DNA from: Streptomyces sp. SBT349 | GTDB lineage: Bacteria > Actinomycetota > Actinomycetes > Streptomycetales > Streptomycetaceae | DNA: 64,000 nt | NCBI RefSeq assembly: GCF_001083795.1 | Contig: NZ_LAVK01000001.1 | Location: forward strand, 1-64,000 | Direction: 5' to 3' | Shown: one piece after another, positions 31,322 to 44,640 of the stretch | Position numbering within the stretch: the first letter of the stretch is position 1 | Layout: the number at the start of each line of letters is the position of its first letter | The notes under the pieces: generated by a model | Seen by the model: the letters and a program-made list of their open reading frames with translations, nothing else | Told to the model about the DNA's origin: nothing | Databases searched by the model: none | Position numbers and translations under genes: made by a program

Positions 31322-34300
31322 GGATCTCGAACGGCCGCAGCGCCAGCTCCACGCCGCCGTCCTCGCCGACCGTGTGCTCCCGCCCGTCACCGAGCGGGCG
31401 CTCCAGCAGGTCGGTCGTCTCCACGGCGGCGAGCGGGAAGCCCGTCACCAGCCGGCCGCGTGCCCGGCCGCCCGCCGACTCGTACAGGCGCACCACCACG
31501 TCGCCGGTGCGGTCGTCGGCCATCTTCACGGCCTCCGCGACGATCGCCCCGCCGTCCACGACGGTGACCAGCGGCTCCACGGTGGCCCGGCCCGGCACCA
31601 GGCGCTCCGGCAGGTTGAGCCCGTGGCCCTCGCGGACCGCGTCGCCGATCGTCGCCCCGGGCGCCAGGGCGTACCGCAGCCGGTGGCTCCCCTGGTCGGT
31701 CTCCGGGTCGGGGTAGCGCGGCGCGCGCAGCAGCGACAGGCGGACGGTCGTGGTCTGGCCGCCGTCCTCGCGCACCTCGCGGGTCACGTCGTGCCCGTAG
31801 GTCGAGTCGTTGACCACCGCGGCACCCCAGCCGGGCTCGCCCACCTGGATCCAGCGGTGCGCGCAGATCTCGAACTTGGCCGCCTCCCACGAGGTGTTGG
31901 TGTGCGTCGGCCGGAACACGTGGCCGAACTGCGTCTCGGCGGCCGAGGCGTCGGCCTTCACGTCCAGCGGGAACGCGGCCTTCAGGATCTTCTCCCGCTC
32001 GTGCCAGTCGATCTCGGTGTCGACCTCCAGAACGCGCGTGCCGGCGCGCAGCGTGAGCCGCTGCACCACCCGCGAGGCGCCGAAGGAACGCGCCACCTCC
32101 ACCGTCGCGGCACCGCCGTCCGCGGCCTCCAGCGACAGCGCCTCCACGTCCGTGAGGTCGCACACGCTGTTGCGGTAGAACGCGTCGACGTCCCAGGCGT
32201 CCCAGTGGTTCGGCAGGTCGGGGTGGAGCTGGAGCAGGTTGCCCGCGGCTCCGGGGGCGATCGCCTCGCGGCCCGCTGGCAGGTCCACGGCCGAGACCAC
32301 CAGGCCCCGGGCGTCGATCTCCACCCGCAGCAGGCCGTTGGCCAGCGTGAACCCGCCGCCCGCGCGCTCCTCGGCGTGCACCGGCGCCTGGGGCAGGTCG
32401 GGTCGGGGCGCCGCGCCCCCCGCCGGGATGCCCCCGCGCTCGTGCGGGGCCGCGTTGAACACCACGGTGCCCTCCCCGTCCCCGCTCCCGTCCCCGTCCC
32501 CGTTCCCATTTCCGGCCAGCGCCCGCTGCGCCCCGTCCACCAGGGCGAGCAGCTCCTCGCGCAGCCGCGCGTAGGTCTCCCTGGCCTCGCGGTGCACCCA
32601 GGCGATGGACGAGCCGGGCAGGATGTCGTGGAACTGGTGGAGCAGCACCGTCTTCCAGATCCGCTCCAGCTCCTCGTAGGGGTACGCGTAGCCGTCCACG
32701 GCGACCGCCGCGGTCGCGGCCCACAGTTCGGCCTCCCGCAGCAGCGACTCGCTGTGCCGGTTGCCCTGCTTGGTCTTGGCCTGCGATGTGTAGGTGCCGC
32801 GGTGCAGCTCCAGATAGAGCTCGCCCACCCACACCGGCGCGTCCGGGTACTCCTCGTGGGCCTTGCCGAAGAACGCCGAGGGCCGCTCGATCTCCACCCG
32901 CGGCGAGCCCTCCAGGTCCCGCAGCCGGGCCGCGCGGGCCAGCATCTCGCGGGTGGGACCGCCGCCGCCGTCCCCCCAGCCGAAGGGCGCCAGCGAACGT
33001 GTCCCGCGCCCCTTCTCACGGTAGTTGCGCGCCGCGTGCGCCATCTCGCGCCCGCTCAGGTCGGAGTTGTAGGTGTCCACCGGCGGGAAGTGCGTGAATA
33101 CGCGGGTGCCGTCGATGCCCTCCCACCAGAAGGTGTGGTGCGGGAACGTGTTGGTCCTGCTCCACGAGATCTTCTGCGTGAGGAACCACGTCGACCCCGA
33201 CAGCTTCACCAGCTGCGGCAGCGCGCCGGTGTAGCCGAACGAGTCCGGCAGCCACACCTCATCGGTCTCGATCCCGAACTCCTCCAGGAAGAACCGCTTG
33301 CCGTACACGAACTGCCGGGCCATGGCCTCGCCGCCCACCATGTTGGTGTCGGACTCCACCCACATCCCGCCCACCGGCACGAACGTCCCGTCCGCGACCT
33401 TCTCCCGCACCCGCGCGAAGATCTCCGGCCTGTGCTCCTTCAGCCAGGCCAGCTGCTGGGCCTGCGACATGGCGAAGACGAACTCCGGGTGGTCGTCCAT
33501 GAGCGCGACCACGTTCGCCGAGGTGCGGGCCACCTTCCGCACGGTCTCGCGCAGCGGCCACAGCCACGCCGAGTCGATGTGCGCGTGGCCGACCGCGCTG
33601 ATCCGGTGCGCGGTCGCGTGGGCGGGGGAGGCGAGCACCCCGGCCAGCCGCTCCCGCGCGGCCGGGGCGCTGCCCGCCACGTCCTCGAGGTCCAGCGCGT
33701 CGAGCGCCCCCTCGATCGCCCGCAGCAGCGTCCAGCGCAGGGCGTCCTCGACGCCCAGCTGGCTCATCAGCCCGCCCACCACGTCGAGGTCCTGCGCCAG
33801 CTCCCACACCTGGGGCTCGAAGACCGTGAGGTCCATGCGCGCCAGGCGGTACAGGGGCTCGTCGCCCGCGGTGAGCCGGTCGCCGAGCTCGCTGGGCTCC
33901 GCCTCGTTGAGGATGGGATTGGCCGCCGCCTCGACGAACAGCTCCACCTCCTCGCCGCCCTCGGCCGCCTCGGCGATCCGCACCCAGTCGTTGTAGGGGT
34001 TCAGCCCCTTCACGGCCTGGCCGTCGCGCCGGTATGCCAGGCCCTCGCACTGGAAGCCGGGCATCATCCGGTCGAAGCCGAGGTCGATCACCGCCTCGAC
34101 CGTCCGCCCGGCCCACTCGGCCGGGACCCGTCCGGTGAGCCGGAGCCATGTGGTGCCCCAGGCCGGGCCCCACGGGTCCCCCGCCGCGGCCGGCCCGTAC
34201 GCGGCGCCCAGTGCCTCGGCCACGGGAACGGGCTCGCCCGGGGCGTCCCAGCGCTCGACGGTCAACGGCACGGGGTCGCGGTGGACGGCGGGCCGGATCC

Positions 34301-38137: not shown

Positions 38138-39085
38138 GTGAGCAGCGCATCCGGTGCCCCCCAGGTCGTCGCCGTGGTCGGGCCCACCGCGGCCGGCAAG
38201 TCGGACCTCGGCATCGCCCTGGCCAGACGGCTGGGCGGCGAGGTGGTCAACGCCGACGCCATGCAGCTCTACCGCGGCATGGACATCGGCACCGCCAAGC
38301 TGACCCCCGCCGAGCGGCAGGGCGTGCCGCACCACCTGCTCGACGTCTGGGACGTCACCGAGACCGCGAGCGTCGCCGCGTTCCAGCGGCTGGCCCGCGA
38401 GCGGATCGACGCGCTGCTCGCCGAGGGCCGCACCCCGGTGCTGGTCGGGGGCACGGGCCTCTATGTCCGCGGCGCCGTCGACGCCCTCGAATTCCCCGGC
38501 ACCGACCCGGAGGTCAGGGCCGCTCTCGAGGAGGAGCTGGGCCGGGAGGGCAGCGGCGCGCTGCACGCCAGGCTCGCCGTCGCCGACCCGCCCGCCGCCC
38601 GCGCCATCCTGCCGAGCAACGGGCGGCGCATCGTCCGGGCGCTGGAGGTCATCGAGATCACCGGGCAGCCGTTCACCGCACGGCTGCCGGGCGCCGCCGA
38701 CGACGGATCCGTCTACCGCACCCTCCACATCGGCGTCGGCGTCGAACGCGCCGAGCTGTACGAGCGGCTCACCGCCCGCGTGGACCGGATGTGGAGCGCG
38801 GGCCTGGTCGATGAGGTCCGCTCCCTCGAACGCGCCGGACTGCGCGAGGGGCGCACCGCGTCGAGGGCGATCGGCTACCAGCAGGTGCTCGCGGCGCTGG
38901 CCGGGGAGTACGACGAGGAGGAGGCGCGCGCCCAGACCGTTCGCGCCACCAGACGCTTCGCCCGCCGGCAGGAGAGCTGGTTCCGGCGCGACCCGCGCGT
39001 GCGCTGGCTGAGCGGGGCGCGCGAGGCTGCCGATGAGCTTGAGCAACGTGCGTGGGAGCTGCTCGAACGGACGGTCACATCCTGA
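38138..39085 (+). CDS. miaA: tRNA dimethylallyltransferase MiaA
   Basis: A 315-aa enzyme that transfers an isopentenyl group to A37 of tRNAs reading UNN codons; its product is the MiaB substrate. P-loop GPTAAGKS (15-22), the conserved VNADAMQLYRGMDIGTAK and GGTGLYVRG motifs, and the Arg-rich tRNA-binding C-terminus are all present. Start GTG 38138 has GGGAG about 10 nt upstream. Confidence 0.94.
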   Translation: MSSASGAPQVVAVVGPTAAGKSDLGIALARRLGGEVVNADAMQLYRGMDIGTAKLTPAERQGVPHHLLDVWDVTETASVAAFQRLARERIDALLAEGRTPVLVGGTGLYVRGAVDALEFPGTDPEVRAALEEELGREGSGALHARLAVADPPAARAILPSNGRRIVRALEVIEITGQPFTARLPGAADDGSVYRTLHIGVGVERAELYERLTARVDRMWSAGLVDEVRSLERAGLREGRTASRAIGYQQVLAALAGEYDEEEARAQTVRATRRFARRQESWFRRDPRVRWLSGAREAADELEQRAWELLERTVTS

Positions 39086-39710: not shown

Positions 39711-39740
39711 GTGTCGTCACGATCCGTTACGCTCGGGCCC

Positions 39741-40637
39741 GTGGGCACCGCACAGCAGCCCGTGCCGTTCCTCAAGGGGCACGGCACGGAGAACGACTTC
39801 GTGATCATTCCCGATCCTGACGACCGGCTCGACCTCTCGGCCGCCACCGTCGCGCGCCTGTGCGACCGGCGCGCGGGCCTCGGCGCCGACGGCCTGCTGC
39901 GCGTCGTGCGCGCGGCCGGCGAGGCCGAGTGGTTCATGGACTACCGCAACGCCGACGGCAGCATCGCCGAGATGTGCGGGAACGGCGTGCGGGTCTTCGC
40001 GCGCTACCTCCGGCGCGCCGGGCTGGCCGAGGGCGACTCCCTCCCCGTCGCCACCCGCGCGGGGGTGCGCCGGGTGCGGTTCGAGGACGACGGTGACATC
40101 ACGGTGTCCATGGGACCGGCCACGCTGCCCGGGGGCCCGGGGGAGTCGGTCACCGTCACGGTGGGGGAGCGGACCTGGCCCGCACGCCACGTCGACATGG
40201 GGAACCCGCACGCGGTCGCGTTCGTCGGCGCCCTCGACCACGCGGGCCCGCTGCTCGACCCGCCCGCCGTCCACCCCGCCGCCGCGTATCCGCACGGGGT
40301 GAACGTGGAGTTCGTCGTGGACCGCGGCCCCGGGCACGTCGCGCTCCGGGTGCACGAGCGGGGCTCGGGCGAGACGCGCTCCTGCGGCACCGGCGCGTGC
40401 GCCGTGATGGTCGCCGCCGCCCGGCGGGACGGTCGTGACCCGGCGGCGGACGGCCGCCGGGCCACCTACACCGTGGACGTCCCGGGTGGGCGGCTGGTGG
40501 TCAGCGAGGACCCGGAGGGCCAGGTCACCATGAAGGGCCCGGCCGTGATCGTCGCCGAGGGGACGCTGGACGCCGCCTGGCTGCATCAATCCTGGCCGGT
40601 GACGCCGCATATTTCAGCCACGTTTCACAGAACATAA
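39741..40637 (+). CDS. dapF: Diaminopimelate epimerase DapF
   Basis: A 298-aa enzyme converting LL- to meso-diaminopimelate for lysine and peptidoglycan synthesis (streptomycete walls use LL-DAP, so mainly lysine). The two catalytic cysteines are Cys79 (EMCGNGVR) and Cys215 (RSCGTGACA). Start GTG 39741 gives VGTAQQPVPFLKGHGTENDF, matching the family; TACGCT 7-8 nt upstream suggests a leaderless mRNA. Longer in-frame starts upstream are unlikely. Confidence 0.93.
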   Translation: MGTAQQPVPFLKGHGTENDFVIIPDPDDRLDLSAATVARLCDRRAGLGADGLLRVVRAAGEAEWFMDYRNADGSIAEMCGNGVRVFARYLRRAGLAEGDSLPVATRAGVRRVRFEDDGDITVSMGPATLPGGPGESVTVTVGERTWPARHVDMGNPHAVAFVGALDHAGPLLDPPAVHPAAAYPHGVNVEFVVDRGPGHVALRVHERGSGETRSCGTGACAVMVAAARRDGRDPAADGRRATYTVDVPGGRLVVSEDPEGQVTMKGPAVIVAEGTLDAAWLHQSWPVTPHISATFHRT

Positions 40638-40795
40638 GTCACTCGAATGGGTGATCCACCACGATAGGGGCGGACGTCGGCGGGTGCACCGTGGTGGGCT
40701 CGGTAGCATCAAGCACCGGCGCCGCTGCGGGAATCCCTCGAATCGATCGACGTCAGCCGCGGTCCGGTCAACAGACCGCGGGAGGTGCCCACCCC

Positions 40796-42922
40796 ATGAG
40801 TGCAGAGGCGACCACACCGGGCGGCGCCGCCCGTGAACGCCGGGGCCACCGAAGAGACGTGCTGCGGCTGCGGCAGCTCGGCCGCGCCGCCGTCATCCGC
40901 TCCACCGTGCGCGACCGGCTCCCCGACGCCATCGAGCATGTGGCCCAGGCCCACCGCCGCCACCACCCGCGCGCCGATCTCGACGCCCTGCGCCGTGCCT
41001 ACCTGCTGGCCGAATTCGCGCACCGCGGGCAGATGCGGAAGAGCGGCGAGCCCTACATCACGCACCCGCTCGCCGTCACGCTGATCCTCGCCGAGCTCGG
41101 CGCCGAGACCACGACGCTCACCGCCTCCCTCCTCCACGACACGGTCGAGGACACGGAGGTGACCCTCGACCAGGTCCGCGCCGACTTCGGCGACGAGGTC
41201 GGCCATCTGGTGGACGGCGTCACCAAGCTGGAGAAGGTGGACTACGGCGCCGCGGCCGAGCCCGAGACGTTCCGCAAGATGCTCGTGGCCACCGGCAGCG
41301 ACGTGCGGGTGATGTCCATCAAGCTCGCCGACCGCCTGCACAACATGCGGACCCTCGGCGTGATGCGCCCCGAGAAGCAGGCCCGCATCGCCCGCGTCAC
41401 CCGCGACGTGCTGATCCCGCTCGCCGAGCGCCTCGGCGTGCAGGCCGTGAAGACGGAGCTGGAGGATCTGGTCTTCGCCATCCTCCATCCCGAGGAGCAC
41501 GCGCTGGCCCGGGAGCTGATCCGCCGTCACGCCCGGCGCCCCGACCCGCTGGCCGAGGCCGCCGTCGCGGTCCGCGAGGTGCTGCGCGAGGCCGGGGTCA
41601 CCGCCCAGGTCGTCACCAGACCCCGGCATGTGCTGTCGGTGCACCGCGTTCGGCTGAAACGCGGCGAGCCCGGCTCCTTCGACTACGGCCGGCTCCTGAT
41701 CCTCGTCCCGGAGAACGCGGACTGCTACGCCGCGCTGGGCGAGCTGCACACCTGCTTCACGCCGGTGGTCTCCGAGTTCAAGGACTTCATCGCCGTCCCC
41801 AAGTTCAACCTGTACCAGTCGCTGCACACCGCCTTCGCCTTCGGCGGCGGGCGGATCGCCGAGGTGCTGGTGCGCACGCACGCCATGCACCGCGTCGCGG
41901 AGGCGGGCGTGGTCGCGCTGGGCGACCCGCACCGCGCGGGCGAGGGCGAGGCCGACGAGGGCGAACGCGTCGACCCGACCCGCCCCGGCTGGCTCTCCCG
42001 GCTGCTCGACTGGCAGCGGCAGGCCCCCGACCCCGACACCTTCTGGACCGCGCTCCGCGACGAGCTGGCGAAGGACCGCGAGATCACGGTCTTCGGCGAG
42101 GCGGCGGACGCGGGCCCCCTCCAGCTCCCGGTCGGCGCGACCTGCGTGGACGCGGCCTACGCCCGGCACGGGCAGGACGCCCACGCCTGCATCGGCGTCC
42201 GCGTCAACGGGCGGCTCGCCACCCTGCGCACCGTGCTCCACGACGGCGACACGGTGCACCTCCTGCTCGCGCCCGACGGCAGCACGGGCCCCTCGCCCGA
42301 GTGGCTGGGGTACGCCACCACGCCCGCCGCCCGCATCCCGATCGGCCACTGGCTGGACAGCGGCGCCGCCACCGGCGCGGAGCCGGGCCCCGAGCCCGTT
42401 CCGCCGCTCGGAGCCACGGCCGGGGCCGCGGCGCCCGCGTCCCGCCGGGAGGCGGCGGACCCGGCCGACAGCGCGGCCGCCCTCGTCGCGGGTGCCCCCG
42501 AGGCCCCGGTGCGCCTGGCGCGTTGCTGCACGCCCGTCCCGCCCGACGGGGTGAGCGGCTTCACCGTGCGTGGCGGCGCCGTCACCGTGCACCGCGAGGA
42601 CTGCCCGTCCGCGGTGCGGATGACCGCCGCCGGGCGCCGTCCGCTGCCGGTGACCTGGCGCTCGGACTCCATCGGCTGCCGCGTCACCCTGCACGCCGAG
42701 GCCCTCGGCCGCCCCGAGCTGCTCGCCGACCTCACCGAGGCCCTGGCCGCCCACGGCGCGGCCGTGCTCGCCGCCGAGGTCGAGCCCCCCCGCGAGCACC
42801 GCGTCCGCCACACCTACACGCTGCGACTGCCCGACTCCTCCGGGCTTCCCCGCCTGATGCGCGCGATGCGCCGGGTGCCGGGCGTCTACGACGTGACCCG
42901 CGCGGCCCGCCTCCAGTCCTGA
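40796..42922 (+). CDS. rshA: RelA/SpoT homologue RshA, (p)ppGpp hydrolase with divergent synthetase domain
   Basis: A 708-aa stringent-response enzyme. The HD hydrolase domain keeps His90, His114-Asp115 and Glu118-Asp119 (HPLAV, SLLHDTVEDTEV). The synthetase region keeps an Asp after Phe (SFDYG), VSEFKDFIAVPKFNLYQSLHT and a Glu in AEVLVRT, but departs from the usual DL(I/V)GIRV, EVQIRT and AEYGVAAHW forms. TGS (~420-485), a zinc-finger-like CC/C stretch (LARCCTPVPP ... DCPS) and ACT (~630-700) follow. GGAGGT is 9 nt before ATG 40796. It is shorter than the main streptomycete RelA and matches the second homologue, RshA. Hydrolase activity seems secure; synthetase activity less so. Confidence 0.85.
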   Translation: MSAEATTPGGAARERRGHRRDVLRLRQLGRAAVIRSTVRDRLPDAIEHVAQAHRRHHPRADLDALRRAYLLAEFAHRGQMRKSGEPYITHPLAVTLILAELGAETTTLTASLLHDTVEDTEVTLDQVRADFGDEVGHLVDGVTKLEKVDYGAAAEPETFRKMLVATGSDVRVMSIKLADRLHNMRTLGVMRPEKQARIARVTRDVLIPLAERLGVQAVKTELEDLVFAILHPEEHALARELIRRHARRPDPLAEAAVAVREVLREAGVTAQVVTRPRHVLSVHRVRLKRGEPGSFDYGRLLILVPENADCYAALGELHTCFTPVVSEFKDFIAVPKFNLYQSLHTAFAFGGGRIAEVLVRTHAMHRVAEAGVVALGDPHRAGEGEADEGERVDPTRPGWLSRLLDWQRQAPDPDTFWTALRDELAKDREITVFGEAADAGPLQLPVGATCVDAAYARHGQDAHACIGVRVNGRLATLRTVLHDGDTVHLLLAPDGSTGPSPEWLGYATTPAARIPIGHWLDSGAATGAEPGPEPVPPLGATAGAAAPASRREAADPADSAAALVAGAPEAPVRLARCCTPVPPDGVSGFTVRGGAVTVHREDCPSAVRMTAAGRRPLPVTWRSDSIGCRVTLHAEALGRPELLADLTEALAAHGAAVLAAEVEPPREHRVRHTYTLRLPDSSGLPRLMRAMRRVPGVYDVTRAARLQS

Positions 42923-43155: not shown

Positions 43156-44640
43156 TTGACCTTCTCTTCCCTTCCTCAGGATCACCAGCGCCGCACCGCG
43201 GGCCGCCGGGCCGACGCCCTGATGGATGAGGACGTCGCCCGGAGCGAGTTCGACGACGTGGACGGCGATCAGTTCGAGCGCGACGAGCGCGCCGCACTCC
43301 GCCGTGTCATCGGGCTCTCGACCGAGCTGGAGGACATCACCGAGGTCGAGTACCGGCAGCTGCGTCTGGAGCGCGTGGTGCTCGTCGGCGTCTGGACCTC
43401 CGGTACCGCGCGGGACGCGGAGCTGTCCCTCGCGGAGCTCGCCGCCCTGGCCGAGACCGCGGGCGCCCTGGTGCTCGACGGCGTGATCCAGCGCCGCGAC
43501 AAGCCGGACCCGGCCACCTACATCGGCTCGGGCAAGGCGCAGGAGCTCAGGGACCTCGTGCTGGAGACCGGCGCCGACACCGTCGTGTGCGACGGTGAGT
43601 TGAGTCCGGGTCAGCTGATCCACCTGGAGGATGTCGTCAAGGTGAAGGTGGTCGACAGGACCGCCCTGATCCTGGACATCTTCGCCCAGCACGCCAAGTC
43701 CCGTGAGGGCAAGGCGCAGGTGTCGCTCGCCCAGATGCAGTACATGCTGCCGCGGCTGCGCGGCTGGGGCCAGTCGCTGTCGCGCCAGATGGGCGGCGGT
43801 GGCTCCAGCAGCGGTGGCGGGGGGATGGCCACCCGCGGCCCCGGTGAGACCAAGATCGAGACCGACCGGCGGCGGATCCGCGAGAAGATGGCGAAGATGC
43901 GCCGGGAGATCGCGGACATGAAGCACGGCCGGGAGCTCAAGCGGCAGGAGCGCCACCGCAACAAGGTGCCGTCCGTCGCCATCGCCGGCTACACCAACGC
44001 GGGCAAGTCCTCCCTGCTGAACCAGCTGACCGGCGCCGGAGTCCTCGTGGAGAACGCGCTGTTCGCCACGCTGGACCCGACCGTGCGCCGGGCGACCACG
44101 CCCAGCGGGCGCGGGTACACCCTGGCCGACACCGTGGGCTTCGTGCGCCACCTGCCCCACCACCTGGTGGAGGCGTTCCGCTCCACCATGGAGGAGGTCG
44201 GCGAGGCCGACCTGATCCTGCACGTGGTGGACGGCTCGCACCCGGTGCCCGAGGAGCAGCTCGCGGCCGTCCGTGAGGTGATCCGCGAGGTGGGGGCGAA
44301 GGACATCCCCGAGATCGTGGTGCTCAACAAGGCGGATGCCGCGGACGAGCTGACGCTCCAGCGGCTGCTGCGGGCCGAGAAGCGGGCCATCGCCGTTTCG
44401 GCGCGCACCGGCCTGGGGCTCGACCGGCTCCTCGAGTGGATCGACGACGAACTGCCGCGCCCCGCCGTGGAGCTGGGGGTCCTGGTGCCCTACACCGAGG
44501 GTGGTCTGGTCTCCCGCGTGCACGCGGAGGGCGAGGTCCTCTCCGAGGAGCACACCGCCGAGGGCACGCTGCTCACGGTTCGGGTGCACCCGGAGCTGGG
44601 TGCGCTGCTCGAACCGTACGTCCCGGCCGTCCGGGGCTGA
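43156..44640 (+). CDS. hflX: Ribosome-associated GTPase HflX
   Basis: A 494-aa Obg-HflX GTPase that splits or rescues stalled ribosomes. The N-terminal HflX domain (~55-260) is followed by the Gly-rich linker GGGGSSSGGGG, GPGETKIETDRR, and a GTPase domain with G1 GYTNAGKS (from Gly278), G3 DTVGFVRHLP and G4 LNKAD. Start TTG 43156 is supported by AAGGAA 6-7 nt upstream; ATG 43222 (MDEDVA) is an alternative. A strong terminator follows. Confidence 0.92.
   Translation: MTFSSLPQDHQRRTAGRRADALMDEDVARSEFDDVDGDQFERDERAALRRVIGLSTELEDITEVEYRQLRLERVVLVGVWTSGTARDAELSLAELAALAETAGALVLDGVIQRRDKPDPATYIGSGKAQELRDLVLETGADTVVCDGELSPGQLIHLEDVVKVKVVDRTALILDIFAQHAKSREGKAQVSLAQMQYMLPRLRGWGQSLSRQMGGGGSSSGGGGMATRGPGETKIETDRRRIREKMAKMRREIADMKHGRELKRQERHRNKVPSVAIAGYTNAGKSSLLNQLTGAGVLVENALFATLDPTVRRATTPSGRGYTLADTVGFVRHLPHHLVEAFRSTMEEVGEADLILHVVDGSHPVPEEQLAAVREVIREVGAKDIPEIVVLNKADAADELTLQRLLRAEKRAIAVSARTGLGLDRLLEWIDDELPRPAVELGVLVPYTEGGLVSRVHAEGEVLSEEHTAEGTLLTVRVHPELGALLEPYVPAVRG

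Follow-up and report, generated by a model that had tools for sequence, protein, structure and literature searches.

Domain organization of RshA

The rshA gene, which encodes a long RelA/SpoT homologue (RSH) predicted to be of the hydrolase-only type ([Hs]), was characterized in the first 64,000 nucleotides of contig NZ_LAVK01000001.1 of Streptomyces sp. SBT349 (assembly GCF_001083795.1), a stretch referred to here as the window. The gene occupies positions 40796-42922 of the plus strand, on which all features described below lie. It starts with ATG at 40796, has no internal stops, encodes 708 amino acids and is preceded by a GGAGG ribosome-binding site, read directly at 40781-40785. Pfam matches to HD_4, RelA_SpoT, TGS and ACT_4 were all found in this one protein, whose score against the NCBIfam RelA/SpoT model TIGR00691 was 465.6 bits, under the cut-off of 499.2. 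The pattern of residues in its two catalytic domains suggests that RshA is probably a (p)ppGpp hydrolase whose pseudo-synthetase has a regulatory role and does not transfer pyrophosphate from ATP.

The opposite strand also offers a stop-free frame across this interval, the usual shadow in GC-rich DNA, which was rejected as a coding frame; the ribosome-binding site, the Pfam domains and 80 orthologs belong to the plus frame. The best-matching relative among the matches listed was S. radicis (91%). The name RshA is also used for an unrelated anti-sigma factor.

The 80 RshA loci compared are the top 80 among at least 576 relatives and are biased toward close relatives, so 61 evenly drawn genomes of the genus were examined as well. 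Residue counts refer to 117 distinct RshA rows, obtained from the 80 loci, the window and further genomes after a broken copy (L141), frames shorter than 550 amino acids and duplicates over the last 400 amino acids had been dropped. No copies were dropped from the 61-genome sample, which overlaps with the 117 rows and includes incomplete copies in G008 (frame cut), G041 (broken) and G050 (contig end). The gaps and the aberrant residues at D264 and K297 come from the G008 copy, as does one of the two aberrant residues at E323 (RelSeq numbering, used throughout for homologous positions).

Residues lost and retained in the synthetase domain

The roles of synthetase residues are known from structures and mutants of other RSH enzymes. 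The adenine of ATP is sandwiched by R241 and R269, and two lysines of RelP stabilise the ATP phosphate (PMC7983052); our positional mapping assigns these lysines to K243 and K251. The guanine is held by Y308, N306 and A335 (PMC7983052; PMC13299517). In RelSeq, pppGpp is contacted by S181, W185, R241, K243, H244, S247, K251, K297, Y299, K304, N306, H312, Q325 and A335, and the substitutions D264G and E323Q abolished synthesis (PMC13299517). D272 and Q347 of the Thermus thermophilus enzyme, called catalytic by Tamman 2022 (PMC9974481), correspond to D264 and Q325 by our mapping.

The synthetase (SYNTH) domain of the window RshA, which Pfam and alignments place at residues 205-376 (41408-41923) and which is probably a pseudo-synthetase, was altered at many of these positions. 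The changes were G240 to T274, K243 to R277, K251 to V285 (41648-41650), R269 to L301 (41696-41698), Q325 to L358 and H342, the histidine of the AAHW motif, to L375 (41918-41920). Five of the eight ATP and catalytic residues considered (R241, K243, K251, D264, R269, E323, Q325, and H342) were therefore changed. D264 and E323 were retained as D296 (41681-41683), the magnesium-binding aspartate, and as E356, which together with V357 and L358 spans 41861-41869; R241, H244, S247, K297, K304, N306, Y308, H312 and A335 were retained as well. Four of the retained residues (K336, N338, Y340 and H344, equivalent to K304, N306, Y308 and H312) lie in the guanine-side loop at residues 335-344 (41798-41827) and were present in 117/117 rows.

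These changes are common to the RshA proteins. In all 117 distinct rows R269 and H342 were leucine, Q325 was leucine or isoleucine and K243 was arginine, whereas K251 was never lysine (most residues there were apolar) and G240 never glycine. The same six positions were unchanged in 42/42 distinct actinobacterial Rel rows and in E. coli SpoT. The retained residues were nearly as uniform: R241 and D264 were each kept in 116 of the 117 rows, with H244, S247, K297, K304, N306, Y308, H312, E323 and A335 also kept, so that R241, S247, K297 and the metal-binding acids were fixed in 116-117 rows. The 61 evenly drawn genomes gave the same result, with R269 replaced by leucine, K251 by residues other than lysine, and G240 and K243 replaced in 61/61, and with Q325 and H342 changed in 60/60 copies in which the position was aligned. 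The pattern of residue loss thus extends beyond this strain to the whole sampled genus. Strain-specific decay and sequencing error were considered and ruled out, the pattern being common to 117/117 distinct rows.

An original prediction, made from the letters of the window alone, had held that the synthetase motifs depart from consensus. Its readings of the motifs (SFDYGRLLILV, EVLVRT and AEAGVVALG) were correct, and the departure is more than chance, being found in 117/117 distinct RshA and 0/42 distinct Rel rows. The motifs are not lost throughout: R269, Q325 and H342 are gone, but the first aspartate (D296) and the glutamate of EVLVRT (E356) are kept. The replacement of K251 in the ATP helix, of G240 and of K243 goes beyond what had been listed. 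What is said here of D264 and R269 hinges on the choice of alignment. In one MAFFT run the DLVGIR motif was split by a gap of six residues, and D296 was aligned with a different aspartate; later alignments paired D296 with the catalytic aspartate and L301 with the arginine, and this mapping, which is also that of the original prediction, was adopted.

By these alignments, the losses in the synthetase site fall on its ATP and catalytic side, and the guanine side is mostly spared. Eight of the 14 pppGpp contacts of RelSeq were kept in essentially all RshA proteins, and S181, W185, K243, K251, Y299 and Q325 differed. Three of the six differing contacts vary also among enzymes that are, or are presumed to be, active: Rel has asparagine and E. 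coli SpoT histidine at S181, E. coli SpoT has threonine at W185, and 5/42 Rel rows have phenylalanine at Y299. Over the whole domain, 41 of the 76 columns invariant in Rel were conserved throughout the 21 RshA rows compared, and 23 were lost in all 21. Most RshA proteins of the genus sample had a RelA_SpoT Pfam match that began only at model position 24-31 vs. position 1 in Rel (the copies of G031 and G047, which started at position 3, were exceptions), which fits an altered front part of the domain. The Mycobacterium tuberculosis (Mtb) substitutions G241E and H344Y, which align with T274 and L375 of RshA, are reported to be synthetase-dead and were not used as evidence.

The hydrolase domain

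The HD domain (residues 61-204, 40976-41407), the predicted site of (p)ppGpp hydrolysis, was intact at the key positions. All 12 positions examined were present in the window protein, including R81, K82, H90, H114, D115, E118, D119, K144, K176, D179 and N183, and the 11 positions checked in the evenly drawn sample were intact in 61/61 genomes, which bears out the claim that the hydrolase residues are intact. Thirty-six of the 39 HD columns invariant in 28 Rel rows were kept in all 21 RshA rows.

Evolutionary rates and selection

RshA formed a clade apart from Rel, beside which it is found in the same genome. Trees with E. coli SpoT as the root (A. baumannii SpoT was not among the rows) placed it with the RSHs of actinobacteria; the larger RSH phylogeny is a quick tree. 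On quick trees with the same root and nine RshA rows, the RshA stem carried 2.78 changes per column in SYNTH vs. 0.58 in HD. In six present-day pairs, the ratio of nonsynonymous to synonymous substitution rates (dN/dS) was 0.06-0.33 for SYNTH, 0.01-0.11 for HD, 0.04-0.51 for TGS and 0.27-0.90 for the linker that follows TGS, and 56 of the 157 SYNTH columns (216-372) were invariant over 81 RshA rows. These rates point to fast change of SYNTH on the stem and purifying selection now. Such a burst, with constraint restored afterwards, is expected if the domain took on a new, non-catalytic function.

C-terminal architecture and structure model

The C-terminal half consists of a diverged TGS domain (residues 429-520, 42080-42355; Pfam), a linker that alignment, structure model and dN/dS indicate to be disordered (42356-42499), a zinc-finger domain with conserved cysteines (ZFD; 42500-42679, from the alignment) and an ACT/RRM domain (42680-42910; Pfam). 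Rel-invariant columns kept in the 21 RshA rows numbered 11/28 in TGS, 11/18 in ZFD and 9/30 in ACT. The linker stands in place of the helical domain of Rel. The stretch between TGS and ZFD was 112-117 amino acids in 28/28 Rel rows vs. 15-104 (median 51) in 81 RshA proteins and 52 in the window RshA; in 55 of the 58 complete RshA copies of the genus sample it was 39-90. Most of the helical domain is therefore gone in most species, though not provably in every one. The linker itself evolves nearly freely, and its length differs greatly among species; in the RshA of G031 (L142), 365 amino acids separate TGS from the zinc finger vs. 39-134 in the other complete copies of the genus.

The TGS position equivalent to H458 was histidine in 37, tyrosine in 42 and leucine in 2 of the 81 RshA proteins, and histidine in 28/28 Rel rows. 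We take this histidine to be the contact to the CCA end of the tRNA (H420 in B. subtilis Rel).

An AlphaFold2 model of the window RshA (mean confidence score, pLDDT, 72.7) kept the RSH fold and matched the N-terminal halves of Rel structures (7oiw, Z 31.2 over 320 residues, root-mean-square deviation 2.9). The pLDDT was below 50 in linker residues 525-559 and in nucleotide-loop residues 329-339, and the model does not distinguish an open from a closed state. The shorter Core of SpoT[Hs] was not found, the Core stretch being 20-41 amino acids in 81 RshA and 14-44 in 28 Rel proteins, nor was a shorter alpha6-alpha7 loop, which had 13 amino acids in 81/81 RshA proteins and in the Rel of the same genome.

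Distribution and other RSH proteins

A match to RshA was found in 61/61 of the evenly drawn genomes of the genus, where the copy of G041 looks broken and those of G008 and G050 are incomplete. In a sample of 50 genomes of the order, RshA was present in 35/35 genomes of the genus, and the other 15 had Rel only (13) or no match (2) at the cut-off used; an RshA is also carried by Actinacidiphila (L082). Among 69 genomes of the class, two long copies occurred only in the genus itself (4/4) and in one further family, f18 (3/3), with two partial pieces in G125 and no match in five genomes. The second long RSH of f18 (L126-L128) lies in tandem with rel in 3/3 genomes and grouped with RshA on quick trees (SH-aLRT support 87 on HD and 95 on SYNTH); both are long branches, and part of this grouping may be long-branch attraction.

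The genome of Streptomyces sp. SBT349 also encodes a canonical Rel (contig C658), a third protein with a RelA_SpoT domain (C177) and an HD-only protein (C77). In 55 of the 61 genomes of the genus, no RelA_SpoT domain above the Pfam cut-off was detected besides Rel and RshA; a third such domain was found in six genomes, including this one, and in one of six genomes reached through the 80 loci. S. violaceoruber NRRL S-981 (L081) had only Rel and RshA as matches to PF04607.

These results bear on the suggestion of the original prediction that RshA may mainly hydrolyse (p)ppGpp and leave synthesis to RelA. The loss of ATP and catalytic residues, the intact HD and the canonical Rel in the genome all favour it, as does the scarcity of further RelA_SpoT domains in the genus. 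In this strain the case for RelA as the sole synthetase is weaker, because its genome has the third, short RelA_SpoT-domain protein.

Proposed role of RshA

In the mechanism we propose, the HD domain would hydrolyse (p)ppGpp to GDP or GTP and pyrophosphate. The SYNTH domain would no longer move pyrophosphate from ATP, having lost the adenine-clamping arginine, the ATP-phosphate lysine, the catalytic glutamine and the AAHW histidine, while its magnesium-binding acids and most of its guanine pocket remain under constraint. GDP or GTP (or the alarmone) could bind in this leftover pocket and tune the hydrolase, binding probably favouring an open, hydrolase-off state. This tuning is inferred from the known antagonism between HD and SYNTH in long RSHs: in T. 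thermophilus Rel, a synthetase site occupied by GDP favours the open state, in which synthesis is active, and ppGpp bound to HD favours the closed state, in which hydrolysis is active (PMC13299517). A pseudo-SYNTH can serve as a regulatory domain (Tamman 2022; PMC9974481). Because most of the helical domain is lost in most species and the tRNA-end site of TGS is eroded, RshA may also no longer be driven by starved ribosomes.

Several observations weigh against parts of this proposal. D264, E323 and R241 are present in nearly all RshA rows and leave room for a slow or altered synthetase, and the replacement of K243 by arginine is conservative. The guanine pocket that would do the sensing is itself partly altered, with glutamine in place of S181 (asparagine in Rel) and threonine, serine, alanine, arginine or valine in place of W185. 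Three of the 58 complete copies of the genus have TGS-ZFD stretches of 110, 134 and 365 amino acids, near the Rel length or longer. The SpoT of A. baumannii does not bind GDP and thus offers no precedent for sensing, and the absence of Core and alpha6-alpha7 shortening in RshA speaks against a copy of the exact SpoT[Hs] mechanism. A 2022 paper treated a frameshift in rshA as part of making a ppGpp0 strain, with RshA held able to synthesise (PMC9927088). We consider the full version of the proposal to be tentative, namely that RshA is a second, separate [Hs] factor that has lost its ATP half, is uncoupled from the ribosome and uses the remaining half as a GDP/GTP (or pppGpp) receptor to switch the hydrolase, fixed across the sampled Streptomyces and with another form in a further actinobacterial family.

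The alternative that survives best, although an unlikely one, is that RshA is still bifunctional, with a weak or conditional synthetase that tolerates leucine, valine or isoleucine at the ATP positions and is active, for example, under phosphate limitation. Work by Ryu in 2007 reportedly found (p)ppGpp in a relA mutant of S. coelicolor M600 under phosphate limitation and is said to have called RshA bifunctional. In the genome of S. violaceoruber, a close relative of S. coelicolor, no small synthetase of the PF04607 family was seen that could explain relA-independent (p)ppGpp. A bifunctional enzyme would agree with the retention of D264, E323, R241, S247 and most guanine residues in nearly all rows, and with the published views of RshA as RshA[HS] (Atkinson 2011) and as a long RSH with both functions (PMC9927088). 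However, R269, K251, Q325 and H342 are changed in 117/117 rows to residues unlikely to do equal chemistry, and all four are present in the synthetase-active SpoT of E. coli. The RshA of G060 (L182), in which the otherwise nearly fixed E323 and R241 are glutamine and lysine, carries the very change, E323Q, that abolishes synthesis in RelSeq (PMC13299517), and the Moraxellaceae SpoT, altered at the same arginine and glutamine (and at the aspartate), was tested and found synthetase-dead (PMC9974481).

Less probable still is plain decay, in which SYNTH has no role except to keep HD in shape. The long SYNTH stem resembles relaxed constraint after duplication, and the G060 copy has lost even E323 and R241, but present constraint on the domain is evident in its invariant columns, its low dN/dS and the near fixation of its guanine and magnesium residues. 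Changed chemistry, with another pyrophosphate donor or acceptor in a site that has lost its adenine clamp, is very improbable: the metal-binding acids, R241, S247 and K297 are fixed beyond the needs of a dead domain, but the catalytic glutamine and the phosphate-binding lysine are also lost, E323 is glutamine in one genome, and no RSH is known to use another donor.

Relation to known systems

A regulatory pseudo-synthetase in RshA would have a precedent in the gammaproteobacterial Moraxellaceae SpoT[Hs], treated in PMC9974481 and PMC12742793. The SpoT of A. baumannii (PDB 7qpr) is hydrolase-active and synthetase-dead, with a regulatory pseudo-SYNTH that does not bind GDP (PMC9974481). Like RshA, SpoT[Hs] is a long RSH with an intact HD and a pseudo-synthetase that lacks the adenosine arginine and the catalytic glutamine. 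A. baumannii SpoT has also lost the other arginine, the catalytic aspartate and the guanine-stacking tyrosine, whereas RshA keeps R241, D264, E323 and Y308; SpoT[Hs] combines a helical domain with a short Core, whereas RshA mostly lacks the helical domain and its Core is not short. By analogy, RshA may be a counterpart of SpoT[Hs] in another clade, one that keeps most of the guanine pocket and could sense GDP or GTP.

RshA matches the clade named RshA[HS] in the survey of Atkinson (2011), as the second long RSH of Streptomyces, in a clade apart from Rel, with the domain order HD-SYNTH-TGS-ZFD-ACT. It differs in that the sequences compared here indicate [Hs], with SYNTH motifs lost in 117/117 rows in place of the bifunctional status in print, and in that the helical domain is mostly missing in most copies. 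The Rel[HS] of the same genome shares the domain order and about 49% identity with RshA from HD to TGS, but has complete synthetase motifs, a helical domain and the fixed TGS histidine. The second long RSH of f18 resembles RshA in its largely intact HD, its degenerate SYNTH (R269L, G240V, H342R/K) and its place in the trees; it differs in its tandem position with rel, in keeping Q325, in the changes E323D, K243S, K251R and K297R, in a TGS that is hardly changed (25/28 Rel-invariant columns) and in a TGS-ZFD stretch of 79-199 amino acids. Among the literature matches listed, no description of synthetase loss in RshA was found in titles, abstract openings or the passages opened, most of the full texts being unopened.

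Antibiotic production and development of Streptomyces are under the control of ppGpp, and the literature lists or treats rshA as a second two-way enzyme. Inactivation of either relA or rshA abolished actinorhodin in S. coelicolor M600 (PMC6627660). If RshA only destroys the signal, rshA mutants should hold more, not less, (p)ppGpp; ppGpp0 strains made by breaking rshA would need rethinking, and RelA-independent (p)ppGpp would need another source, for which Streptomyces polynucleotide phosphorylase, a producer of pppGpp, would be a candidate. RshA would then represent a second lineage of long stringent factor without synthesis, with a dead half acting in a testably different way.

Gene neighbourhood and further RSH-related genes

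The genes around rshA are conserved. On the basis of their sequences we take them to be miaA (38138-39085) and dapF (39711-40637) upstream, and hflX (43156-44640) downstream. All four genes were found in 76 of the 80 loci, with identical order and strand in 76/76, and one of the four was without a match in each of the remaining loci. The ortholog in S. violaceoruber NRRL S-981 shares 67% identity with the window RshA and lies in an identical gene order. In the rshA of G041 (L141), residues from about 333 to 467 match the strand opposite to that of residues 1-379, which may be an inversion, a broken gene or a misassembly.

Two further genes of Streptomyces sp. SBT349 encode RSH-related domains. 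The HD-only protein (L004; C77:38770-39396) resembles small alarmone hydrolases and is a further candidate (p)ppGpp hydrolase. At about 31366-31719 and in the flanks on C177 (L095), genes for a protein with an NA37 nucleoid-associated domain, for the RelA_SpoT-domain protein and for a small putative membrane protein adjoin one another. The RelA_SpoT-domain protein has 332 amino acids, is without the QSLHT loop and gave a weak PADLOC match to PDC-S33; the three-gene set may be a mobile or defence cassette.

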